Shown: positions 14,810-28,406 of the stretch, piece by piece
Numbering within the stretch: the stretch's first letter is position 1
Layout of the letters: every line of letters starts with the position of its first letter
Assembly: GCA_934295165.1 (NCBI GenBank)
Contig: CAKRAT010000021.1
Location: 1-32,323 of the forward strand
Direction of reading: 5' to 3'
DNA: 32,323 bases
From: an uncultured Dorea sp.
GTDB lineage: Bacteria > Bacillota > Clostridia > Lachnospirales > Lachnospiraceae
Translations under genes and position numbers: made by a program
Notes under the pieces: model-generated
What the model was told of the DNA's origin: nothing
The model's database searches: none
Seen by the model: only the letters and a program-made list of their open reading frames with translations

Positions 14810-16330
14810 TTATTGTACATCAAGTTCGAACCAGAATTCAACACCATTGTCGTAATTCTTCACACCATATTCCTGATGAAAGGACTGCATGATCGCTTTT
14901 ACAATCGAAAGCCCGATCCCGTTACCTCCATATTCTCTTGTATGCGCCTTGTCAACTTTATAGAATTTATCCCAGATATGCTCCACATCATTTTTCGGAA
15001 TCGGTGTTCCGGTATTGAATACAGATACTCTTACTTTACCCTCCGATACGTCCATCTTTACTTCTATTACTTTATCTCCGCTGACATGATGAATTGCATT
15101 ACTTACATAATTTCTTACAACCTGTTCTACTTTGAATTCATCCGCCCACGCATAAATATCTTCACTTACATTGAAAATCACTTTTGCATCGGCCTGATCT
15201 GTCATGATCTCCATGCTCTGAAGAACACCCTTCACCAATGCTGTCAGATTAAAACGGTCAAATACAATATCCTCATCACCAAATTCCAGCTGATTTAATG
15301 CCAGCAGATTCTTTACCATCTGATTCATCTTGGATGCCTCATCCATGATCACATCACAGTAGAATTCCCTGCTTTCCGCATCTTCATTGACACCTTCTTT
15401 TAACCCTTCCGCATAACCCTGGATCAATGCAATCGGTGTCTTTAATTCATGAGATACATTTCCCAGGAACTCATTTCGCATCTTTTCCAACTTGTCTTTC
15501 TGTTCGATATCTTTCTGCAGACTGTTATTTGCTTTCTTTAATTCTGAAATCGTACTTTCCAGTTTTTCCGACATACGGTTAAAGTTTTCTCCCAGTTCAC
15601 CAATCTCGTTGCTTCCGCCACTGGTATATTTGGCATCAAAATCAAGATCAGCCATCCGATCTGATAATCTGGCCAGTTCCCGGATTGGTTCTGTAATCCT
15701 TTTTGAAAAATACCAGATCAGAAGAATTGAGACCACGATTAAAACACTCCCTATATATAATAGGAAACGATTAGATATCGATGCACTCTCCCGCATACTT
15801 TCAACCGGACTCCTGAGCAAAAACTGACTTCCGTCATCCAGGCTTCCCCACATATCAACATAATAATTCTGATTCCACGGATCCCATGACTGATTGATCT
15901 GATAGTTCTCCGTTGAATCCAGTATACGGCTTTCTTTCTGCGCCTGATTCAGAAAATATCCCATCAGCTGATTCTTCAGCATATTCTTGTCATGTACATT
16001 TGTATGCACATCATTATCCTTTTCTATTACCAGGTAAGAAATATTATTCTTTTCAGCGAAATGAATCAATGAACTATTCTTCTTTGTATTATCCCATCTA
16101 TCTGCATTCGATACATCATTTAACTTTTCATAAAGCTCTACAAATCTAGATTCTTTTTTACTTATATAATATGGCTCCAGAAATTTTCCGTTGATGAACA
16201 TTAATGCCGCTACCAGACAGATCAATAACCCTACAAATGATACGATCATTTGTGTCTTGATCGAATGATGCATATTCTTTATTTTTAATCTCTTATCTTT
16301 GATTATATTCTTCATGCTTATATTTTTCAT
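14810..16330 (-). CDS. Two-component sensor histidine kinase
   Basis: A 506-residue membrane kinase. Membrane segments at about 29-47 and 189-207 enclose an extracellular sensor domain of about 140 residues. A HAMP domain (210-265), a HisKA domain with phospho-acceptor His294 (NVSHELKTP), and a HATPase_c domain (N box NYVSNAIHHV, G boxes EYGGNGIGLSIV) follow. Its ATG overlaps the response-regulator stop as ATGA, so the pair is translated together. The signal is unknown; the sensor domain shows no recognised ligand motif. Confidence 0.95.
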   Translation of the reverse strand: MKNISMKNIIKDKRLKIKNMHHSIKTQMIVSFVGLLICLVAALMFINGKFLEPYYISKKESRFVELYEKLNDVSNADRWDNTKKNSSLIHFAEKNNISYLVIEKDNDVHTNVHDKNMLKNQLMGYFLNQAQKESRILDSTENYQINQSWDPWNQNYYVDMWGSLDDGSQFLLRSPVESMRESASISNRFLLYIGSVLIVVSILLIWYFSKRITEPIRELARLSDRMADLDFDAKYTSGGSNEIGELGENFNRMSEKLESTISELKKANNSLQKDIEQKDKLEKMRNEFLGNVSHELKTPIALIQGYAEGLKEGVNEDAESREFYCDVIMDEASKMNQMVKNLLALNQLEFGDEDIVFDRFNLTALVKGVLQSMEIMTDQADAKVIFNVSEDIYAWADEFKVEQVVRNYVSNAIHHVSGDKVIEVKMDVSEGKVRVSVFNTGTPIPKNDVEHIWDKFYKVDKAHTREYGGNGIGLSIVKAIMQSFHQEYGVKNYDNGVEFWFELDVQ

Positions 16331-17010
16331 GCTTCATCAACCTCGAATTTATATCCCATACCCCAGATTGTTTTAATATAATTTCCTTTTTCTCCGAGTT
16401 TGCTTCTTAATTTCTTTACATGTGTATCGATCGTTCTCGCGTCTCCAAAGTAATCATAGTCCCATACATTATTCAATATCTTCTCTCTTGATAATGCAAT
16501 ACCCTGATTCTCTACAAAATATGTTAACAGTTCGAATTCCTTGAAGCTCAATTCAATCTCTTTGTCGTCAATCTTCACCTGATGTGCCGCTTTATCTATG
16601 ATGATTCCACCGGCATCGATCTCATCACCGCCGCCTAATATATTGGCTCTTCTTAAGATTGCATTGACTCTTGCCACCAGTATCTTAGGACTGAATGGTT
16701 TGGAAATGTATTCATCTACACCGAGATCAAATCCCTGTAATTCATCCCGTTCTTCTGATCTTGCAGTCAACATGATGATCGGTACTTTCGATGACTGGCG
16801 TACTTCACGGCATACCTGCCATCCGTCCATTCTCGGCATCATCACGTCTAATATAATAAGCGCAATGTTTTTTTCATCATAAAATACTTCCATCGCTTCC
16901 ATACCGTCTCCGGCTTCCAGTACCTGGTATCCTTCCCTTCCCAGGAAATCTTTCACCAGTTTTCTCATTCTGCTCTCATCATCTACTACTAATATTTTGA
17001 TCTTATCCAT
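16327..17010 (-). CDS. OmpR-family response regulator
   Basis: A 227-residue regulator. The receiver domain has the acidic pocket Asp10/Asp11, phospho-acceptor Asp55 (IILDVMMPRMDGW) and the conserved Lys in ISKPF. The winged-helix DNA-binding domain has ELLTYFVENQGIALSREKIL and TIDTHVKKLRSKLGE. AGGAGG lies about ten bases before the ATG. It pairs with the overlapping kinase. The target genes are not visible; the neighbouring flavoprotein operon is one candidate by position only. Confidence 0.95.
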   Translation of the reverse strand: MDKIKILVVDDESRMRKLVKDFLGREGYQVLEAGDGMEAMEVFYDEKNIALIILDVMMPRMDGWQVCREVRQSSKVPIIMLTARSEERDELQGFDLGVDEYISKPFSPKILVARVNAILRRANILGGGDEIDAGGIIIDKAAHQVKIDDKEIELSFKEFELLTYFVENQGIALSREKILNNVWDYDYFGDARTIDTHVKKLRSKLGEKGNYIKTIWGMGYKFEVDEA

Positions 17011-17313: not shown

Positions 17314-20300
17314 TTACATTTCTTCTTCGTCTTTTTTCTTTCTTTTGGACTTAACTCCTCCGATTCCTGCTCCGAGTGAAGTTACTGCAAGTCCTAACCA
17401 TGCAAACAGGCTTGATGGATCACCTGTCTTAGCTGCTTTGCCGCTCTTTGAAGAAGATGTAGATCCTGTGCTTCCGGTTTTTCCTGATGATGTGTTTGTT
17501 CCGGTTGTATTGCTTGTTCCGGTTGTTGTCTGGCTTCCTGCATCTTTCTTCACCAGTGCGCTGATTGCTTTGTTCAGTGCTTCTGTTGCTGCATCAACTG
17601 TGCTCTGGTCTTTCTTTTCTTCCAGTGCTGTCTTCGCACTTGCAAGTGCTGTCTGAAGTGCTTTCCAGCTGTCTGCTGTATAATCAGCTTCTTTTAATGT
17701 ACCTGCTGTAGCGATTGCTTTTTCAAGTGCGTCAGTTGTAACTTCTTTGACCGAATCTTCTGTATCATCTTTTACAAGTGCATTCATTGCCTGACTCAGT
17801 GCCTCTGTTGCTGCATCGACTGCTTCCTGGCTTTCTTTTGCTTCCATAGCTGCCTTGGCATTTGTAAGTGCTGACTGGAATGCTGCCCAGCTCTCTGCTG
17901 TGTAGTCTGATTCTTTTAAGCCTTCTGCTGTTGCGATTGTCTCTGCAATCTTTGTTGTATCAACTTCCGGTGCCGGCTGTTCTGCTTTTACCAGATTGTT
18001 GAGTGCTTCTGTCAGGTGTGTTGTCTGCTCTGTTACTTCTGCTCCTGCCGGATTCTCTTTTGCAAGCAGGTCTTTTGATTCCTGTAACTCTGTCTGCAGG
18101 TTCTTCCAGCTCTCTTCTGTGTAATCAGATTCATTCAGCCCTTCTGCTTCTGTTACTTTTGCCTGCAGTGCTGCAATCTCTTCTGTTGTTGCCGGTTTCT
18201 TTTTGGCTACAATGTTCTCTGCTGTTGCCTGGAAATCATATGTATAATCTTCATATCCAAGGGCATGTACTGTCAGTCTCCAGTATCCTGTTCCGTCCGT
18301 TCCTTCTGGTAACTGGCATCTGATGGAATCTGTCAGCCCAAGCTGGATTCCCATTGATTTGTGCATCCAGTTATCTGCTGCAAATTTTGTTCCATATGTC
18401 TGAAGCGGTGTACTGTAACTACTGTCACTTCCATAGTATGTCCATGTCACTGCCTGCATATTTGATCCAAGGTCACCATAGTTTCCGTTAATGTCTACTC
18501 TCAGGAACTCTCCGTATGAACCGCTTGCGGCTTTTACTGTTGGTTCTACTCCTGTTGCTGTCTTTAATGCCTGATCTTTGATTCCGGATTCTGTGCCTTC
18601 ATTCTTTCTTGCCGTGAATGTGAATCCGTCTCCTGATTTTACTGCTTCCTTCAGTCCATATGTATTCGCTGTTACGTTTGCTGTCTCTGTATATGCTTTC
18701 AGTTCTTTTTCTTCATATCCTCCTGAAAGTGTTCCTCCATTTTCTACAACTGTATAGTTCTCTTTTAATGACGGCAGATCAGCTGTCTTAACTTTCACCG
18801 GAACATATTTCAGACCTGTTACTTCGTAATGGTCAAGTGCTTTTCCATTCACCAGTTTATTTTTTGAGTCAAATGTTACTGTACTTCCATCTGTTAATAC
18901 GAGCTCTGATGATGAATTCCAGCTTGCAACTTTATATGTATTTCCTTCTGTATCATAGATTGTTGCGATACACTGGAAGCTTCCTCTGTGTAAACCGTGG
19001 TTTGCTGTTGCTCTTGTTACTACATCAAATCCACCCTTATCATACTCTTCGTGTGAATCCTGTTCACTTGATGACTCTGTGTTTCCTGCCTGGTATACAC
19101 CTTCATTTGCCCAGTATTCTGCCCATGTCATTCCTACATATACATATGAATACTCGTCTGTCACTGCCTCTTCTGCAACTACACTTGTTTTAATATCCTG
19201 ATAATTATCACTTGTAATTGTCAATGTGTAGTTTGTACCTACTGTTGGTTCTTTATCCAAAGCAACTTTTAAATCTTTCAGATCTCCGCTTGTCAATTCT
19301 GATTCTTTACGTCCGTTTCTGTAAGTCAGTTTATATGCCGGATTTTCCAGATCTTTTAATTCTACTCCATTCAAAGCAATTTCCAGTTCTGTTCCCTTTA
19401 ATGTTGCAGTTGCATCTGCTGTTGGATATGTAGCCTTAATTTTCTCTTCTAATTCACTGATCAGTTCTGCTGCATCTGCAGATAACGCTTCCTTATTTGC
19501 AATCATGTCCTGAGCCTCTTTTACGTGCTCTTTCAGATCAGTATTCTCGGAATAACCTGTTGTCTTTTCTGCTTTTTCAATCAGCTTCTGTAATGTATCT
19601 TTCTGCTTATCTGTAATTGGTGTAGATGTCTTTCTTGTGATATCTGGATAATTACTGCTGCTGATTGTAATTGTATACTGCGTGCCGGCTGTTGGTGCAT
19701 CTTTTAAAGCAACTTTTCCATTCTTCACACTTGCCTTATCTGCCAGACCACCGGATACACTTACCGTTACATCTTTCAGATCAGATGGGATCCCACTGAT
19801 TTCAAGTTCATCTGAATCATTCTTCAGAGAATATTTTAATCCGCTGAGGTCTCCGTCATAATATTTATCTAATCTAACATTACACGGAACATCAATCACG
19901 CCGAGATCTGTAATTAATGTAACGCTGCTTAATGTAGCACCATTCATATCAGCAAACTGATAGAATGCATCTCCCTGGTCATGCGCTCTCTTTAATCCCT
20001 GTCCTTCTTTGATAGACCATGCGATTTCTACATTTGTTGTCTTTGTTCCAACCCAGAGATTCTCCAGGCTTGTCATACCGTAACTCTTTCCAGAAGTTGT
20101 GTTCAGGATTGCTCCATAAAGAGTGTATTCTTTGGTTTCATTTTCTCCAACTTTTATTCCTGTTTTCGTTCCCAGTCCGTCAATTGTAATCTGGTAGTCT
20201 CCATATCCTCCGTTTAATTCCAATTCATCTGCCGGAACGGAAAGATAGTTGTTTGTTACCGTTGCATCAGACATTTTTGAGAAGCTATATGTTCCGTCTT

Positions 20301-21288
20301 CTTTTACCGTTAATTTGCTGTATGCTTCTGGTACCTTATCTAAGGTTGTAAAATAGTAATCATCATTTTCAGTCAGATTTGTCTTTAATTTTGCATAATC
20401 TTCTGCACTTACTTCTACCGGGATTGTTACACCCATGATATATTTACCATTATTGTAAGTACCTTTTGCAAGCCCTGTTGTTCCTTTGAATTTATTTGTT
20501 GTTGCTGTAGATACAGCATCCACACCATCTTCTACTTCCCATACCGCTTTATCTGTCAGATTATAAGCCTTATAGAACTGATTGTATGGAACATTCATAA
20601 CAAGATATTTTGCTTCTTTGACAGCTGGTTTTAAATTGCTGATCGCTGCATCCAGTTCTTTTTTTGCTGTATCAACTGCATCCTGGGATTTCTTTTCAGA
20701 AGCCGCCGTCTTTGCAGCAGTAAGTTTTGTTTTTAATGTGCTCCATGATTCTGCAGTATAATCGCTTTCATTTAAAGCTTCTGCCTGTTTGATTGATTGT
20801 TCAAGTGCTGTCGTATCAACTGTCACTGCCGCCCCTGCTTCCGGTGCTGACTGGATTGCTGCTAACGCTGCTTCTTTTACAGCATTCGATGTTCTTGTTG
20901 CACCCGATACTACATCCCAGCTGCTAATTACACTTTCTGCCGCTGACTGTCCGGCTAATTTTGTCTTTATTCCTTTTTTACCGGAAAATGCTTTATCAAA
21001 ATATGTTTTGTTTTCTGTTTCATATCCATTTTCAGGAGTTACCGTAATATCAGAAAATTTTCCATCTTTTACTGTTAATGCTACCTGAACGTCATACTCA
21101 TTCCATTCGTTCTCTTCTTCATCATCCTCTTGCGTTCTGGCAACATGTGCAGTCTTTGTATACGTTCCATCTTTTGCCACCTGATCCTTCGTTACCGCCA
21201 TCGCCGGTACCGCCGGGCAGATACTGGCTGCCATTGCAGTAGACATCGCAACTGCCATTACTTTGGTCTTCATTTCTTTCTTTTTCAT
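17314..21288 (-). CDS. KTGD-anchored surface protein: FMN-binding domain, two Tp47-like modules, FIVAR repeats
   Basis: A 1324-residue cell-wall protein. The start at 21288 has AAGGAGG at ideal spacing; the frame extends 33 codons upstream without one. Order: signal peptide (1-31, cut after AMA); FMN-binding domain (36-145) with the ApbE acceptor motif DVVSGAT (125-131, flavin predicted on Thr131); FIVAR repeat (161-222); Tp47-like module 1 (226-470); Ig-like segment (480-556); helical FIVAR-like segment (562-618); Ig-like segment (620-705); Tp47-like module 2 (712-1022); three FIVAR repeats (1036-1248); Ser/Thr/Gly linker; KTGD sorting motif (1287-1290); membrane segment and basic tail. Module 2 matches what I recall of Treponema pallidum Tp47 at [40 protein letters not shown] and GYWRLT. 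It is probably displayed on the wall as the outermost flavoprotein of the upstream operon. Tp47 binds penicillin; whether this one does is unknown. Confidence 0.88.
17545..18183 (-). repeat. Three consecutive FIVAR repeats in the surface protein
   Basis: Residues 1036-1248 consist of three units of about 65 residues sharing the pattern [14 protein letters not shown], then LQ-L--AK, then A---L--A---LV. A fourth copy lies at residues 161-222. These helical units are common spacers in wall-anchored proteins and push the active part away from the wall. Confidence 0.85.
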
Positions 21289-21318
21289 AAAAGCCTCCTT
21301 AACGAAAATATTTATTAT

Positions 21319-21340
21319 TAAGTTAGTATTTTCTAACTTA
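21319..21340 (-). promoter_or_regulatory. Perfect 8-6-8 dyad upstream of the surface-protein gene
   Basis: TAAGTTAG, six bases, CTAACTTA form a perfect inverted repeat 31 to 52 bases before the ATG. It could be an operator or a 5' leader hairpin protecting the message. No convincing -35/-10 pair is seen, so an internal promoter for this gene is possible but unproven. Confidence 0.45.
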
Positions 21341-21363
21341 TAATCAAAAAAAATTTTACTTAA

Positions 21364-21392
21364 CAGACATGTGCGTTTTCCACACATGTCTG
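21364..21392 (-). terminator. Intercistronic hairpin between Fe-S protein and surface-protein genes
   Basis: Perfect 10-bp arms CAGACATGTG and CACATGTCTG with a nine-base loop lie 15 bases after the Fe-S gene. The T tract begins only about seven bases beyond the stem and is preceded by TTAAGTAAAA. It may therefore be a partial terminator or an RNA-processing or stabilising element that sets the level of the surface-protein message separately from the upstream genes. Confidence 0.5.
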
Positions 21393-21407
21393 CATGTTAT
21401 CCTGTTT

Positions 21408-22274
21408 TTATACTCCAAGCCAGATACATAATCCAAGCAGTATCAGTGCTCTCAGTATTGTAAACCAGATTTCATTTCCTCTCAGTTTCTTCACGCCACA
21501 ATGAATATTCTTTTTCGGACATGTATCCATACATTTCTGGCACTGGAAGCAGTCGCCTTCTACTTTCCAGGAACCATCCGTTGGAAGTCCGATATTCGCC
21601 GGACATTTTCTGGTACAGGCGCTGCATTTTGGGATGCACGCTTCTCTGTCCCGGTGTAAAGAAAAAAGTGGCAGCACCGGAATCAGGGAAAATACAGCTC
21701 CCATCGGGCAGAAGTTTCTGCAGAAAAATCTTTCTTCCAGACACATTCCAACGATCAGAAGCAGTAATATAATCAGTCCGGTCACATATCCTCCCAGTCT
21801 GAAATTACCGGCATGTATCATAGAGAATACATCCCATGGGCTTGTTCCCTGTGCTTTGCTGTATACGCCCCCATAACACATGAAGACGATCACTGCCAGG
21901 ATCACATATTTCAGATATACAAGTTTATCTGAAATTCTATCCGGTATCTGTACCGGCTTTTTCTTGCATTTTTTGCAGATCCACACATGCAATGCATGTA
22001 CTGCATCACCAAGTGTTCCGAACGCACAGGCAAATCCACAGAAGAATCTGCCGAATATCATTGTATAGATACAGACTACCACGAGCACACTGACGAAAGA
22101 TGTCAGAGCAATCTTTTCACCTGCACCAATCTGTGTAAATATGTATTTCACTCCGGCAAATGCTGCCGTATAGACAGACGGTATGAACAGGAAATATAAC
22201 AGCTGGATCAAAGCCCGCAGCCAGATATGTATCTTTTTTATCTGTTTTGCATTTATATTCTTTCTCTTTTCCAC
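21408..22274 (-). CDS. NapH/NosR-like membrane protein with two 4Fe-4S clusters
   Basis: A 288-residue membrane electron carrier. Membrane helices lie at about 18-45, 55-74, 120-137, 160-178 and 270-287. The paired motifs GRFFCGFACAFG (75-86) and ERFFCRNFCPMG (181-192) are those of the NapH/NosR/CcoG-type family. Two ferredoxin clusters follow: Cys213, 217, 220, 224 and Cys242, 245, 248, 252. It would move electrons from the quinone pool or a cytoplasmic donor across the membrane to the FMN-binding proteins encoded beside it. The start is GTG, one base after the stop of the previous gene. Confidence 0.85.
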   Translation of the reverse strand: MEKRKNINAKQIKKIHIWLRALIQLLYFLFIPSVYTAAFAGVKYIFTQIGAGEKIALTSFVSVLVVVCIYTMIFGRFFCGFACAFGTLGDAVHALHVWICKKCKKKPVQIPDRISDKLVYLKYVILAVIVFMCYGGVYSKAQGTSPWDVFSMIHAGNFRLGGYVTGLIILLLLIVGMCLEERFFCRNFCPMGAVFSLIPVLPLFSLHRDREACIPKCSACTRKCPANIGLPTDGSWKVEGDCFQCQKCMDTCPKKNIHCGVKKLRGNEIWFTILRALILLGLCIWLGV

Positions 22275-22275
22275 G

Positions 22276-22710
22276 TTACTCTACCGCCTTTTCCAATGCC
22301 TGTTTTGTTGCATTCCTGATTCCCGTCGAACTGAATGTTGCTCCACTGATCGTGTCTACTTCTGCACTCTGTGCATCCAGTATCTTCGGAATAATATCTT
22401 TCGCCATAGACAGATACGATCCATCTTCGCCTTCCGCAGAAGTTACATTTAATTCTGTGATCTTCTGCTTCTCCACTTTCACTTCTACTTCTACAGTTCC
22501 GCCGAAACCATCCGCTTCACCGGTATAACTTCCATCTTTATAGGAACCTTCTCCATCGTTCTGGTCTTCTGAATTATCTGTACTTTCTATTCTGGCATTT
22601 AGTTTTGCTATTTTCTCATCCTTTTCTCTGGCATCCAGTACCGAATTATATCCAAATATCATACCGATGATCACAAGGACACTTACCAGACGCATCCAGA
22701 ATTCTCTCAT
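22276..22710 (-). CDS. Small membrane-anchored FMN-binding protein
   Basis: A 144-residue protein with an N-terminal membrane helix (6-24), a short coiled coil (26-42) and one FMN-binding domain (57-143). The ApbE acceptor motif is DTISGAT (119-125), with Thr125 as predicted flavin site. Similar domains occur in RnfG and NqrC. Placed between the multi-FMN protein and the Fe-S membrane protein, it could relay electrons between them at the outer membrane face. The domain is of normal length and shows no defects. Confidence 0.9.
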   Translation of the reverse strand: MREFWMRLVSVLVIIGMIFGYNSVLDAREKDEKIAKLNARIESTDNSEDQNDGEGSYKDGSYTGEADGFGGTVEVEVKVEKQKITELNVTSAEGEDGSYLSMAKDIIPKILDAQSAEVDTISGATFSSTGIRNATKQALEKAVE

Positions 22711-22734
22711 TCTTTTCTCTCCTTCTTACGCTGA

Positions 22735-24504
22735 CTACTTACTGTTTTTCGCCGAAACCAATGCATTATCACAAGCTTCCAAGATCGCTTTAGATGAACA
22801 GGTCGCTCTGGATACTACATCAATATCTTCTGTTGAACCTTTTTCGATTACCTGCGCTACAACGCCTTTTCTGCTGGAGGTACCATTTGCTGCTTTGGTA
22901 ATATAGCTGTTATTGGAAGAATCTCCGTCTCCCTTTACATCGGTAATTGCAACAATCTTGTCATTTCTTACGGTTATCTTTAACGTCAGATTATAAGCTG
23001 TAAAATCTTCATCTTCATCCGGAAGGCAGAGCGCACGTCCTTCGTAAATACCATTCTTATACACTGTATTATCTTCATCCGAACCGTTATCTTTCTTCTC
23101 AAGCAAGGCAAGAGCCTGATTCAGATTTTCCAGTGCCTGATCTACTTCTTCCTGTGTAATCTTAGTTTTGTCTGCATCAATTAATTTCTGTGCGTCCTCC
23201 ATTCGTGTCTTAAGAACTGCATAAGTTGCTTCTGTGTAATCATCTGCATTTATTTTGGCTGCTTCTTCCATCACTTTTTCAAGTTCTTCCGTATCCGCTT
23301 TTTTTACTTCCGGTTCCGTCTGCTGCCCGTTGGTTGCTTTTTCTGCTTCTTTCAGGGCATTCTTGACCGCATTTATCAGACCATTGGAACTGTAGGTTGC
23401 CCCGGATACCACATCCACATCTGTACTTTGCTTTTTCATTATATTCTTCACTACGTCCATCGCACGGTTGAAGAATCTTTCATCATCGTTATTTTTCGTA
23501 ACCAGTACTGCTTTTATTGATTTTTCCTGAATGACAACTGCTACTTCGATGTCACCGTTATAACCTTCGGCCGTTCCATAATAGATTCCTTCTTTATATG
23601 GGAAGTTTCCGGTTGTTACCGTAGATGTATTGTCATTCTGATTCGTACTACTGCTATCCGTCGATATCTCTGCACTTACGGAGCTTCCACTTACTGCCGC
23701 CTGGCGGAGTGCATCTCTTACCGCACTCTTGATTCCATTCGAACTGTACGTTGCTCCGGATACCACATCTATGTTCGTGCTCTGTGTTGCAATAATCGTA
23801 TTGATTAATGTTGTTGCACGATTCAGATAGCTGCTGTCATCATGATTTTCTACAATGTCAATTGACGCAATCTTACCGCCACTGATCACAACCTTAACCT
23901 TCAGGGTTCCTCCGAATCCGGTTCCGGTTCCATAGTAAGTTCCGTCTTTATATGCCGCAGCGTCCTGTACATCATCAAGCGCAAGAGTACTTCCTTCTGC
24001 CGCCGTATTTCCTGACTTCGAAGCACCTGTCTCACCGCTGTCTTTTTCTCCCGTCAATGCATTTTTTACCGCACTGATAATACCATTCGAACTAAAGGTC
24101 GCTCCGGATACCACATCTACATCCAGCGTCTGACCGGCAATGATCCTGTCAATGACTGCTTTCGCACGGTTAAAAAACGCCGCATCATCCGATGAACTTA
24201 AGATATCGATTGCTGTGATCTGTTTATCCTTAATTGTAACCGCAACGGTAATATCTCCGGCATATCCGGTTCCCGTTCCCTTATATACCCCATCCGCAAG
24301 ATCAAATGAGCCTTTCACTGTATTTTCTGTTTTTTCTTTACCGGCATCTGTATCTACATTCTTCGTTTCTTTCGTCTGTGCCTGCACTTCATAAACCGGT
24401 GCCTGATAACCACTCAGAGAGATGCCGATACAGGCTGCAACTACAACAGCCGACGTCAGAGGTGCTCCCTGTTTGATTTTTTTTATTACTTTTTCTTTGT
24501 CCAT
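22735..24504 (-). CDS. Multi-FMN protein with four FMN-binding domains
   Basis: A 589-residue extracytoplasmic protein with an N-terminal signal/anchor (about 14-33). Three similar FMN-binding domains (67-150, 183-268, 301-387) each end in DVVSGAT followed by -SSNGI or -SSNGL; the predicted flavin threonines are Thr136, Thr252 and Thr370. A FIVAR-like helical segment (404-470) separates them from a fourth, divergent domain (479-585) with DVVSRAT (Thr568), in which the motif glycine is Arg. Several flavins in one chain suggest a flavin wire like other flavinylated extracellular electron-transfer proteins. It lies ten bases after apbE, which would flavinylate it. Confidence 0.9.
   Translation of the reverse strand: MDKEKVIKKIKQGAPLTSAVVVAACIGISLSGYQAPVYEVQAQTKETKNVDTDAGKEKTENTVKGSFDLADGVYKGTGTGYAGDITVAVTIKDKQITAIDILSSSDDAAFFNRAKAVIDRIIAGQTLDVDVVSGATFSSNGIISAVKNALTGEKDSGETGASKSGNTAAEGSTLALDDVQDAAAYKDGTYYGTGTGFGGTLKVKVVISGGKIASIDIVENHDDSSYLNRATTLINTIIATQSTNIDVVSGATYSSNGIKSAVRDALRQAAVSGSSVSAEISTDSSSTNQNDNTSTVTTGNFPYKEGIYYGTAEGYNGDIEVAVVIQEKSIKAVLVTKNNDDERFFNRAMDVVKNIMKKQSTDVDVVSGATYSSNGLINAVKNALKEAEKATNGQQTEPEVKKADTEELEKVMEEAAKINADDYTEATYAVLKTRMEDAQKLIDADKTKITQEEVDQALENLNQALALLEKKDNGSDEDNTVYKNGIYEGRALCLPDEDEDFTAYNLTLKITVRNDKIVAITDVKGDGDSSNNSYITKAANGTSSRKGVVAQVIEKGSTEDIDVVSRATCSSKAILEACDNALVSAKNSK
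23344..24306 (-). repeat. Three tandem FMN-binding domain repeats
   Basis: Residues 67-387 of the multi-FMN protein are three units of about 85-90 residues with the same order: Y--G-YYGTG-G--G, a VAV-I strand, a (D)D--(F/Y)-NRA helix and DVVSGAT-SSNG. The similarity implies domain duplication within the gene. Confidence 0.88.
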
Positions 24505-24514
24505 ATCTCCACCT

Positions 24515-25603
24515 CTATTTTTTCATCACATTTACTTCATAGTCGGAACTGAAATCATCTGCAATCCCCTCTGATACATATAATTTGTTATCATCGGTAA
24601 GCAGGATCACGTCAAATTTATCACTGTATTTTTTCCAGTATTTTTCTGCTTTCTCTTTTCCCATAATGAATAACGAAGTAGACAGACCATCTGCCAGAGT
24701 TCCGTCATCACTGACGATCGTCACAGATGTCAGACCATTCTCTGCCGGATAGCCCGTGGACGGATCAATGATATGATGGTATTTCTTTCCATTTTCTTCG
24801 AAATACCGTTCATACCCTCCGGATGTAATGACTGCTTTATCTTTTGCCTGTAATACTCCCAGATAATTGCCGTCTTCTTCCGGGCTTTCTACTGCCACTT
24901 TCCAGCCACTGCCGTCCGGCCTGGCTCCCAGTAACTGTACATTACCGCCAAGACTTACAAGACCACTTGTCACACCACATTCTTTATAGATCTCCATAAT
25001 TCTCGATGATGTATATCCTTTGGCAATACCTCCGAAGTCAATTTTTACATTTTCCGGAAGTGTGATTTTTTTTGTCTTCTTATCATACTGAATTTTGGAT
25101 GCATCTACATTTGCAAGCAGTGTATGAAGTTCCTCTTCCGAAGGTACTTTATAATTTTCCGTCGGAAATCCCCATGCATCCATAACCGGATAGATTGATA
25201 TATCGAATACACCTTTCGTCTGTTTGTATAATTTTTCTGAACGTTCAAACAGATATGCCGTATCCTCTGATACAACACCTTCTCCATTCTGGTTCAGCTG
25301 ATATACCTCGCTGGTTTCTTTTCCTGTCGATAAAAGTTCATCTAATCTCTTGATCTCTGCCTCTGCCTTGTCTACCGCATCCGATGCATGTTCTCCATAT
25401 GCGGTTACCGTCATATAGGTATCCATGGCAAAGATATCACGGCTCTGCTTCTCTTCATCCGGCTGTGTACTTTTACTTTCCATACTGTCCTGCTTTGTCT
25501 CTTTTGTCTGTGTTGTGTTGGCAGATCTGGCATCCTTTCCACAACCTGCTGCCCCTGCCGATATCGCCGCACATAATATAGCTATGACAATCCTCTTCTT
25601 CAT
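24515..25603 (-). CDS. apbE: ApbE-family FAD:protein FMN transferase (lipoprotein)
   Basis: A 362-residue lipoprotein. ApbE transfers FMN from FAD to a threonine in Dxx(S/T)GAT motifs of exported proteins. The signal peptide ends in AAGC with Cys21 as lipid site. Conserved elements are AMDTYMTVTAYG (59-70), DFGGIAKGY (189-197), SLGGNVQLLG, HHIIDPSTGYP (276-286) and the Mg-binding ADGLSTSLF (Asp305, Thr309). The start at 25603 is preferred over 25636 because GAGGATGAGAGA precedes it and a proper signal peptide results. It is the first gene of the flavoprotein operon; its substrates are the three FMN-binding proteins encoded next to it. Confidence 0.95.
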   Translation of the reverse strand: MKKRIVIAILCAAISAGAAGCGKDARSANTTQTKETKQDSMESKSTQPDEEKQSRDIFAMDTYMTVTAYGEHASDAVDKAEAEIKRLDELLSTGKETSEVYQLNQNGEGVVSEDTAYLFERSEKLYKQTKGVFDISIYPVMDAWGFPTENYKVPSEEELHTLLANVDASKIQYDKKTKKITLPENVKIDFGGIAKGYTSSRIMEIYKECGVTSGLVSLGGNVQLLGARPDGSGWKVAVESPEEDGNYLGVLQAKDKAVITSGGYERYFEENGKKYHHIIDPSTGYPAENGLTSVTIVSDDGTLADGLSTSLFIMGKEKAEKYWKKYSDKFDVILLTDDNKLYVSEGIADDFSSDYEVNVMKK

Positions 25604-25676
25604 TCTCTCATCCTCTGCATTTATAGTTATATACATCTAATATAGTATCTTATACGCTAATTTTTGTTCGCATCTT

Positions 25677-25716
25677 CTAACCTAGTTAATGTACCATATG
25701 ACTTTGACTGCTTCAA
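25677..25716 (-). promoter_or_regulatory. Putative promoter of the apbE-led operon
   Basis: On the minus strand TTGAAG (25711-25716), a 17-bp spacer and TACATT (25688-25693) form a promoter with an extended -10 (TGG before TACATT). A nearly symmetric CTAAC-CTA-GTTAA (25677-25689, one mismatch) overlaps the expected start site and could be a second operator. Confidence 0.5.
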
Positions 25717-25732
25717 TTATTTTTTGAGTTTT

Positions 25733-25747
25733 TGATAATTATTATCA
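25733..25747 (-). promoter_or_regulatory. Perfect 7-1-7 Fur/PerR-type box
   Basis: TGATAAT-T-ATTATCA is an exact 7-1-7 inverted repeat, the classical Fur box of Bacillus; PerR boxes differ by one base per half. It lies 16 bases upstream of the apbE -35 and after the tmRNA terminator, so the apbE operon is the only gene set it can serve. The site may overlap an upstream promoter with a TAATAA -10. Confidence 0.7.
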
Positions 25748-25890: not shown

Positions 25891-25900
25891 ATCGCTATAG

Positions 25901-26248
25901 TGGACCTGGCGGGAGTTGAACCCGCGTCCGAAAGCCCATCCATTCGAGCATCTCCCATCACAGTCATTATATTAACATTCCCTCCATGCGGCACCTAATG
26001 ACAGGTTCCTCACTTTAGTAGCTTCATAAGTTCTTCCATCTCCTCAAAGCTTTGGAAACGAAGTGCTCCGCCTGTTTGAAGCCGGTGACCCGGACAGCGG
26101 ATGATCCGGGGCCGACTGCGGCCTAATTAGGCTGCGTACGCTAATTCTGTATTGTCTGCGTTTATATTTAAGTGGAACTTTTAACGTAGTGTCCCGCTAC
26201 GGATGGCTTCTCCAACTTCCAGACCCCCGTCGAAACCAGTACAAGCCC
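25901..26248 (-). ncRNA. ssrA: Transfer-messenger RNA (tmRNA)
   Basis: tmRNA frees stalled ribosomes and tags the unfinished protein for proteolysis. The 5' end GGGCTTG pairs with the 3' CAGGTCC as the acceptor stem, followed by the hallmark TGGTTTCGACGGG. The T arm is GCGGG-TTCAACT-CCCGC. The tag frame at 26127-26159 reads A-DNTELAYAA then TAA, with GCA as the likely resume codon and a GCCTAATTAGGC hairpin at its stop. The last three bases are CTA instead of CCA, so the CCA end is probably added enzymatically. The mature ends are inferred from stem pairing. Confidence 0.95.
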
Positions 26249-27200: not shown

Positions 27201-27971
27201 CTAAATAGAAAACGCCATAACCACAACCCCGAGTATCACCAATATCACACCGGTCATTCGATTCAACGTCTTCGGTGTTGCCTTATTCGCAAATACTGCC
27301 GCAATCCTTGCCCACAACAGTGTGAACATAATACATAAAATCCACACCGCTATATTCGGCATTCCCCCAATTGCAAAATGCGAAACTGCGCCGGTAAAGG
27401 CTGTAAATGTCATGATAAACACACTCGTTCCAACCGCCGTCTTAAGTTCATATCCAAGCACTGAAGTCAGGATCAGAAGCATCATCATACCGCCTCCGGC
27501 ACCGATAAATCCACAGATAAATCCGATCAGCACACCACAGATTACCGACTGAACCGCACGTTTCTTCGGTGATACCTTTGCCATGGCCTCTTTCGTTGTC
27601 ATGACAGGCTTTACGATGAACTTAATTCCAAGCAAGAATGTCATAAATACGGAGAAATTTCCCATCGTTGCCGATGGTACCAGACTGGACACATAACTTC
27701 CTACAACTGTAAATATGAGAACGCTGACCATCATGATCAGACCATTCTTTATGTCCAGATTCTTATTCTTTCCATATGTATAGGCAGATACTGCGCTTGC
27801 AAGCACGTCCGATGAAAGTGCGATTCCGACTGCCATATATGGATCCATTCCAAGAAATGTGATCAGCATCGGACTGATCACTGCCGCCGCGCTCATTCCG
27901 GCAAATCCGGTTCCGAGTCCGGCTCCCATGCCTGCGAAAAATGTTACGATAATCATTAATATTGTATTCAT
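27201..27971 (-). CDS. TauE/SafE-family (TSUP) membrane transporter
   Basis: A 256-residue protein with seven or eight membrane helices. The N-terminal FAGMGAGLGTGFAGMSAAAV and the mid-protein FICGFIGAGGGMMMLLILTS are the two glycine-rich repeat signatures of the TSUP family. Members export sulfite, sulfoacetate or other organic sulfur or carboxylate anions. Its ATG directly follows the MarR stop (TAG-ATG), with the ribosome site GGAGG inside the marR gene. The regulator and transporter are thus one unit. The substrate cannot be told from sequence. Confidence 0.92.
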   Translation of the reverse strand: MNTILMIIVTFFAGMGAGLGTGFAGMSAAAVISPMLITFLGMDPYMAVGIALSSDVLASAVSAYTYGKNKNLDIKNGLIMMVSVLIFTVVGSYVSSLVPSATMGNFSVFMTFLLGIKFIVKPVMTTKEAMAKVSPKKRAVQSVICGVLIGFICGFIGAGGGMMMLLILTSVLGYELKTAVGTSVFIMTFTAFTGAVSHFAIGGMPNIAVWILCIMFTLLWARIAAVFANKATPKTLNRMTGVILVILGVVVMAFSI

Positions 27972-28406
27972 CTAGATCTTTTCCTCCAATATCTTTTCTA
28001 TATTCGCTTCCATATGCGCCATTCCTTTTTGAAGTGCTTTTCTTGTATCTTCATCCATTCCTTCAAATAGTTTTTCAACAAACGACTGCTGGAGTTTCTG
28101 TCCTTTTTTGATAATCTCTTTTGACTTTTCTGTACAGAGCAGATGAACTTTTCTCCGGTCACCTTCTACACTTTTCCGCTCCAGATAGCCTTCATTCACA
28201 AGTTTATCCACATTTACCGATACAAGATTGGCTTTAATTTTTCGTACCTCTACGATATCTCTGGCGGTTTTGTATTCTGGGTTGTTCGCCAGGAATAATA
28301 AGATGTCAAATGCGGTCTGTGGAATATTCAGTTCATGGCATAACGGTTTGCAGGTCTCGCTATATGCCTTTGACAGCTTTTCTGCAAATTCAATTCCTGT
28401 GTTCAT
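27972..28406 (-). CDS. MarR-family transcriptional regulator
   Basis: A 144-residue winged-helix regulator. The core is FDILLFLANNPEYKTARDIV, then IKANLVSVNVDKLVNEGYLER (recognition helix) and the wing KSVEGDRRKVHLLCTEKS; dimerisation helices lie at both ends. MarR proteins repress neighbouring transporter genes and respond to small ligands, so it probably controls the exporter behind it. AAAAGGAG lies about 11 bases before the ATG. Confidence 0.92.
   Translation of the reverse strand: MNTGIEFAEKLSKAYSETCKPLCHELNIPQTAFDILLFLANNPEYKTARDIVEVRKIKANLVSVNVDKLVNEGYLERKSVEGDRRKVHLLCTEKSKEIIKKGQKLQQSFVEKLFEGMDEDTRKALQKGMAHMEANIEKILEEKI

Follow-up and report, generated by a model that had tools for sequence, protein, structure and literature searches.

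A Tp47-type surface protein beside the flavinylation genes of a predicted electron-export locus in an uncultured Dorea sp.

What does a large protein with a predicted wall anchor and modules of the Tp47 fold do when it is encoded beside genes for covalent flavin attachment? The question is raised by a stretch of 32,323 nucleotides from an uncultured Dorea sp. (contig CAKRAT010000021.1 of assembly GCA_934295165.1), which as a whole is referred to here as the window. Five genes on its minus strand, at 17314-25636, encode in this order an ApbE-type flavin transferase, a protein with four FMN_bind domains (FMN, flavin mononucleotide), a small FMN_bind protein, a NapH-like 4Fe-4S membrane protein and the large surface protein. 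A preliminary description of the window, made from its letters, had named five same-strand genes with these identities, and their positions and their Pfam and NCBIfam matches bear it out. The genes, domains and motifs are present, the wall protein resembles Tp47, and Tp47 proteins are linked with ApbE, FMN_bind and NapH-like proteins in related loci. The five genes probably represent an electron-export path, in which electrons would leave the cytosol through the NapH-like protein, pass over ApbE-flavinylated carriers, and reach the Tp47 surface protein, which would bind a redox partner outside the cell. The wall protein contains Tp47 domains and related pairs stand together across many gut bacteria; Tp47-type proteins are therefore likely to take part in moving electrons at the cell surface.

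Linkage of Tp47 proteins with flavinylation genes

Related loci were collected by a scan with a Tp47 alignment, keeping one genome per species, and the 54 loci obtained are spread over genera of the Lachnospiraceae, over Faecalibacterium and Coriobacteriia, and over further groups. Of these loci, 43 have a NapH relative, 38 an ApbE and 45 an FMN protein at most 10 kb from the Tp47 gene. The preliminary description had staked the coupling of the wall protein on conserved linkage, and this linkage holds: among the 36 well-flanked loci, having at least 9 kb on either side, an FMN protein is near in 34, NapH in 31 and ApbE in 29. All three partner classes (ApbE, NapH and FMN protein) occur together in 34 of the 54 loci, two of them in 11, one in two, and none in seven, while the corresponding numbers for the well-flanked loci are 25, nine, one and one. 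The 34 complete loci show 13 gene-order strings, with three orders accounting for 24 loci and some of the others differing only in split or doubled open reading frames (ORFs). Six loci among the 54 (L023, L042, L045, L047, L049 and L050) encode a partner on the other strand.

Eleven loci have no NapH nearby, five of them in genomes with a NapH elsewhere and six in genomes that yielded none. Checked in 16 genomes, among them those of all 11 NapH-less loci, ApbE was found in every one. The loci L008, L016 and L026 contain a short Tp47 protein adjoining ApbE and an apparently multi-transmembrane protein with a C-terminal FMN_bind domain, which in L026 is MsrQ-like, matching MsrQ at 2.5e-7, below the cut-off. 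Even with a different membrane carrier, the Tp47 protein thus keeps flavinylation genes as its neighbours. The multi-transmembrane FMN_bind protein may represent another type of carrier that serves this surface fold. The five Faecalibacterium loci have no ApbE nearby, and an ApbE is encoded elsewhere in the genome of L025; Faecalibacterium is known for flavin-dependent electron shuttling. In two of the five genomes with a NapH elsewhere, both of them drafts that carry Tp47 proteins, the NapH relatives (L091 and L092) contain in-frame stops. An ApbE-Tp47 fusion (L034:4058-6346), consisting of half an ApbE and a truncated wall protein, was read as a deletion or an assembly chimera, and was not used.

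Three genome samples around three seeds served as a control, with 120, 65 and 147 genomes, representing 332 in all and 329 without the seeds. Tp47_c is encoded in six, one and one of these genomes (8 of 332), and a NapH relative at E <= 1e-20 in 17, one and two, respectively. Every one of the eight Tp47_c genomes has a NapH relative on the same contig, at a distance of 5 kb or less. When the seeds are dropped, Tp47_c is found in 5 of 17 NapH-positive and in 0 of 312 NapH-negative genomes (hypergeometric 2e-7); the first sample alone, without its seed, gives 5 of 16 and 0 of 103 (2.4e-5). The NapH density of the first sample is about 0.18 per genome (21 matches in 120 genomes), and by arithmetic the chance of a NapH within 10 kb on either side in a 3-Mb genome would be of the order of 0.1%.

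The composition of the surface proteins is far from uniform. A domain scan covered 49 of 53 Tp47 proteins, leaving out three at contig ends (L015, L023 and L051) and a fragment (L054). Tp47 domains are present in all 49, since the relatives were collected by them, and they are accompanied by FMN_bind in 13, FIVAR in 15, Shr-like_HID (PF07550) in 16, and SLH in one. The C-termini, inspected by eye, range from the sortase type to none recognisable. On the surface protein the FMN_bind domain and the anchor are dispensable, whereas most loci keep the flavin genes close by. The FMN domain of the wall protein itself, to whose motif the preliminary description had drawn attention, is therefore no constant part of such proteins; the common part among these relatives, collected by it as they were, is the Tp47 module.

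The five genes and their flavin motifs

The ApbE-type FAD:protein FMN transferase (FAD, flavin adenine dinucleotide) is encoded at 24515..25636, on the minus strand like every feature of the locus, with a Pfam ApbE match of 2.1e-90 and a lipoprotein signal recognised by eye. The SGGY, HHIIDP and DGLST stretches are all present, and the best solved relative is 7esa, an FAD:protein FMN transferase (1.6e-52), which we take to be Listeria FmnB. The four-domain protein (22735..24504) has an N-terminal membrane anchor by eye and matches Pfam FMN_bind in four stretches (8.9e-53), the third of which resembles 8p2b, CbFMN4 domain 1 (4.3e-11). Its motifs, at 24117, 23769, 23415 and 22821, comprise three intact D-x-x-SGAT and one SRAT, the altered motif DVVSRAT belonging to the fourth FMN_bind domain. 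Of 40 related loci with such a protein, 8 have an [ST]RAT in the apparently matching FMN domain (7 SRAT and 1 TRAT, with the SKAS row of L042 dropped as low-complexity), so the SRAT is no chance defect of the window genome. The small FMN_bind protein (22276..22710; Pfam FMN_bind 7.9e-14; N-terminal anchor by eye) carries DTISGAT at 22356-22336. NCBIfam models for RnfG and NqrC match the FMN proteins of the window as well, both below their cut-offs. The NapH-like 4Fe-4S membrane protein (21408..22274) matches Pfam Fer4_5 (PF12801) at 1.4e-9 and 38.2 bits, the cut-off being 22, and NCBIfam NapH/MauN at 4.1e-21, under the cut-off of that model; its Cys motifs are intact, at residues 79, 185, 220 and 242. 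These first four genes are spaced by 1 to 24 bases.

The fifth gene encodes the large predicted surface protein (17314..21288), consisting of a signal peptide recognised by eye, FMN_bind, FIVAR, two Tp47-type modules, more FIVAR, and a KTGD-type anchor, with four FIVAR stretches detected by Pfam. Residues are numbered here according to a 1357-amino-acid ORF from 21387. The ATG at 21387 falls within a 13-bp hairpin, and an alternative ATG at 21288 is preceded by AAGGAGG; the latter is likely the start of the gene, giving 1324 amino acids, the same length as the homologue P0088. The hairpin (21393-21363) and a run of eight T (21353-21346) together occupy 21346..21393, between the napH-like gene and the wall gene. 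The RNA of 21412-21285 folds at -32.2 kcal/mol with a z of -5.56, and none of 200 shuffles was equally stable. This element is possibly an attenuator, a processing site, or a partial terminator, and with a start at 21288 behind it the fifth gene may be under control separate from the first four.

Within the wall protein, the FMN_bind domain (20851..21093, residues 99-179; Pfam 5.7e-8) carries DVVSGAT at 20916-20896. The locus as a whole hence contains five intact flavinylation motifs, three in the four-domain protein, one in the small protein, and one in the wall protein, together with one altered motif; the motif positions agree with the count in three substrate proteins that had been given before. 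The Tp47_a and Tp47_c domains form a module at residues 744-1063 (18199..19158), with DVVTRAT at 19026-19006, inside Tp47_a, and with strong Pfam matches (Tp47_c 1.2e-73 and 247 bits; Tp47_a 5.1e-65 and 218 bits; cut-off 25). A divergent module at residues ~258-512 (19852..20616), which is without a Pfam match and carries DAVSTAT at 20520-20500, looks like a second module of this fold. Both modules were assigned to the Tp47 fold; Foldseek alone did not match the divergent one to Tp47. Among the matches listed (VIA lists) for either Tp47-type module there is no FMN_bind structure, which decides nothing. The LPXTG-like (KTGD) wall anchor lies at 17332..17430 and scores 17.5 bits with TIGR01167 (LPXTG_anchor), for which the cut-off is 15.9.

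On the same strand, a gene for transfer-messenger RNA (25898-26248, tag ADNTELAYAA) stands directly upstream of apbE, and is followed by a terminator-like hairpin at 25893-25848. A TauE/SafE exporter and a MarR regulator are encoded at 27201-28406 (minus strand), with thiamine genes beyond. The interval 14810-17010 (minus strand), downstream of the wall gene, encodes a response regulator together with a HAMP histidine kinase. In L025, L032, L037 and L045, relatives of both lie no more than 10 kb from the Tp47 gene; this pair could be the regulator of the cluster.

The Tp47 modules and the proposed electron path

The Tp47 modules share a motif that represents the ApbE target motif minus its glycine. 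The pattern D-x-x-[ST]-x-A-[ST] is present in 275 of 276 aligned Tp47_a modules (190 proteins, near-identical ones included, 6 of 282 rows having been dropped for gaps) and in 100 of 111 divergent modules (57 of 168 rows dropped, and some rows misaligned). Position 5 is R in 270 of the 276 Tp47_a modules, S in five, and G in none; in the divergent modules it is S or T in 101 of 111, two G being a misaligned VLTDGTT. The Tp47 of T. pallidum likewise has this glycine-free motif. Across nine sequences of both module kinds, the D, V, A and T of the motif and one Y are invariant; a larger set of divergent modules keeps D, A and T, but V is not invariant there. In the FMN proteins of the same loci, motifs picked by regular expression contain [ST]GAT in 118/129 and 43/44, and among FMN_bind-type motifs, similarly picked in the 120 homologues listed, glycine is present in 46 of 106. 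An earlier motif count of 53/53 was discarded, as the regular expression and one scan pattern presuppose the motif.

The Tp47 modules were considered as ordinary ApbE substrates, and this was rejected: the pattern D-x-x-[ST]-G-A-[ST] does not occur, position 5 never being G in the 276 modules, and the absence of glycine from the Tp47_a modules speaks against ordinary flavinylation. Replacement of the glycine by alanine in the ApbE motif leaves about half of the flavinylation according to a review (PMC12052999), and arginine at position 5 of Tp47 is therefore doubtful as a target. Reading Tp47_a as a diverged FMN_bind domain was also rejected, hhalign aligning only 12 columns at the motif with a probability of 15, and only the likeness of the motif was kept. 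The motif could be a meaningless convergence, could serve for docking, or could be an ApbE target that lacks the glycine. A wider proposal, which we hold to be rather improbable, would make the Tp47 fold itself a redox module, forming the outward end of flavin electron export, with the motif loop as a glycine-free ApbE target or as a docking site for the flavin carrier; the syphilis Tp47 would on this proposal serve electron transfer, and penicillin binding would not be its main role. The syphilis spirochete has an ApbE homologue, and protein flavinylation has been reported in it.

In the electron-export path that we favour, ApbE would attach FMN to the five intact motifs, and the NapH-like protein would be reduced by a carrier in the cytosol, for instance ferredoxin, quinol seeming a less likely source in fermenters of such kind. 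The electrons would next reach the small anchored flavoprotein and then travel over the four-domain protein to the wall protein, where the Tp47 loops D-x-x-[ST]-R-A-T-x-x-H-G-x-x-R and K-F-A-x-D-N-W-M-H may form a site for the acceptor or partner. The membrane-to-wall path put forward in the preliminary description fits the NapH-like class and published wall clusters (PMC8238504), but ferric iron as its acceptor is a guess.

Several points weigh against this path. FMN occupancy, electron flow, and the direction of flow are predictions here. The hairpin splits the wall gene from the other four, and co-transcription is therefore not assured. Conservation of at least 97% was counted in 67 of 335 module columns (52 locus instances and the window), with the densest runs being R-A-T-x-x-H-G-L-x-R-G and G-T-K-F-A-x-D-N-W-M-H-K, and this count is inflated for the loops because the Tp47 scan patterns were taken from them. 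The putative binding loops are partly among the least confident parts of the structural model, which was built on ten sequences; low confidence might point to a site ordered by its ligand, or merely to a shallow alignment. At E <= 1e-10, no NapH was found in the genomes of L007, L008, L016, L026, L034 and L047, several of which are draft metagenome-assembled genomes, and the linkage could partly be due to transfer of the cluster as a block. As for the genome samples, all five non-seed Tp47_c genomes come from the first, and in each of the other two the seed is the one genome with Tp47_c, so that these add no independent positives, and the genome test overlaps with the locus test, sharing at least one genome (G018, the source of L014). 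Additionally, 11 of the 17 NapH-positive genomes in the 120-genome sample are without Tp47_c; among seven of these that were inspected, three have a divergent Tp47-like module in a secreted protein (L083, L085 and L088), another three encode secreted proteins of other kinds, and one is cut off by the contig edge.

The same surface protein can be read in other ways. It may be an adhesin or a cell-wall scaffold that holds the flavoproteins in place, its modules binding glycan or peptidoglycan and playing no redox part, which is possible, if doubtful in our judgement. The Tp47 domains of relatives do stand beside FIVAR, Big_2, fn3, SLH or choline-binding repeats, and both penicillin binding and penicillinase activity are reported for the T. 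pallidum protein (PMC11057208). However, the C-termini of Tp47 proteins are very diverse while the flavin genes stay near in most loci, and the concentration of conservation in two polar loops, pattern-biased as it is, fits a specific ligand site better than a generic scaffold.

It is unlikely that the system is assimilatory, reducing iron or taking iron or electrons from host haem, with the Tp47 protein as a haem or haemoglobin receptor. The Shr-like haemoglobin-interacting domain in 16 of 49 relatives speaks for this reading, but the Pfam name goes back to a single streptococcal protein, and the domain is widespread among surface proteins. In the wall protein of the window Pfam detects no Shr-like_HID at E <= 0.1, and no iron or haem transporter is named among the 24 window proteins that were scanned, although links between flavinylation and iron are known in outline (PMC8238504). 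Also unlikely, finally, is a passive linkage in which the wall gene rides with a mobile flavinylation cluster and has no functional coupling to it. The rarity and patchiness of the Tp47 domain (8 of 332 genomes) would be consistent with block transfer, but the 13 order strings and the opposite-strand partners show neighbours that were reshuffled yet kept, and the link outlasts a change of membrane carrier.

Comparison with known flavin systems

The outline of the proposed electron-export path is not new. NapH-like carriers with a separate FMN-binding protein have been reported in 539 clusters (Meheust et al. 2021, PMC8238504), so that ApbE-FMN-NapH sets are, as had been stated beforehand, known in outline. 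The same paper models an electron path to the wall through multi-flavinylated clusters, and calls their large surface proteins unannotated. The window shares with these clusters ApbE, the NapH-like carrier, a multi-FMN protein, and a large FIVAR surface protein: it has a PF12801 protein beside ApbE and FMN_bind, as in a NapH-like flavinylation system, and four FMN_bind stretches with a large FIVAR protein, as in a multi-flavinylated wall cluster. The words Tp47 and penicillin have 0 occurrences in PMC8238504, whereas Tp47 domains are identified here and track the cluster. A link between Tp47 and flavinylation was not found in the literature searched, the co-mentions of Tp47 with flavinylation in PMC6399405 and with flavin in PMC5956850 being incidental, in agreement with the remark that the coupling to the wall protein is little described; likewise, no redox role for T. 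pallidum Tp47 was met in the papers found. The wall-cluster outline, the FIVAR wall proteins, and the NapH carriers are thus known, as is the biochemistry of multi-FMN proteins and of ApbE (PMC10339131, PMC12052999), and what we did not find in print, in the texts available, is the Tp47 fold as a recurring surface partner. Tying surface proteins once called unannotated (PMC8238504) to the Tp47 fold provides a concrete, testable protein in common gut genera, Faecalibacterium among them. Tp47, a well-known syphilis antigen, would in turn gain a repeated genomic context among its relatives, namely flavin electron transfer.

The Listeria extracellular electron transfer locus comprises FmnB, PplA, EetAB, Ndh2 and FmnA. 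It is like the present system in its related ApbE (7esa), and in that EetA/EetB relatives stand beside many relatives of the window cluster: EetB is encoded in 26 of the 54 loci and EetA in 22, Pfam having been run on one pair. In L009, L012, L015, L029 and L044, eetA/eetB-like ORFs occupy the interval between the napH-like gene and the wall gene. In Listeria, ApbE is supplied with FAD by way of the export subunit EetB (PMC9973259). The scan of 24 window proteins detected neither EetA nor EetB (PF07009/PF07456) and no Ndh2-type (type II NADH) dehydrogenase having a membrane helix, a NapH-like carrier being present instead. The window flavoproteins have no match to the PplA model at E <= 0.01, and Pfam detected none of the RnfA-E or NqrA-F partners among the 24 proteins.

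The four-domain protein is comparable to CbFMN4 and SaFMN3 (8p2b and 8p2a; PMC10339131), which likewise have tandem FMN_bind domains and an adjoining flavin transferase gene, and in which FMN is covalently bound, on Thr67 in 8p2b. It differs from them in the SRAT of its fourth domain. Lastly, the Tp47 of T. pallidum (1o75) is a lipoprotein, whereas the window encodes a multidomain, wall-anchored protein beside flavinylation genes.

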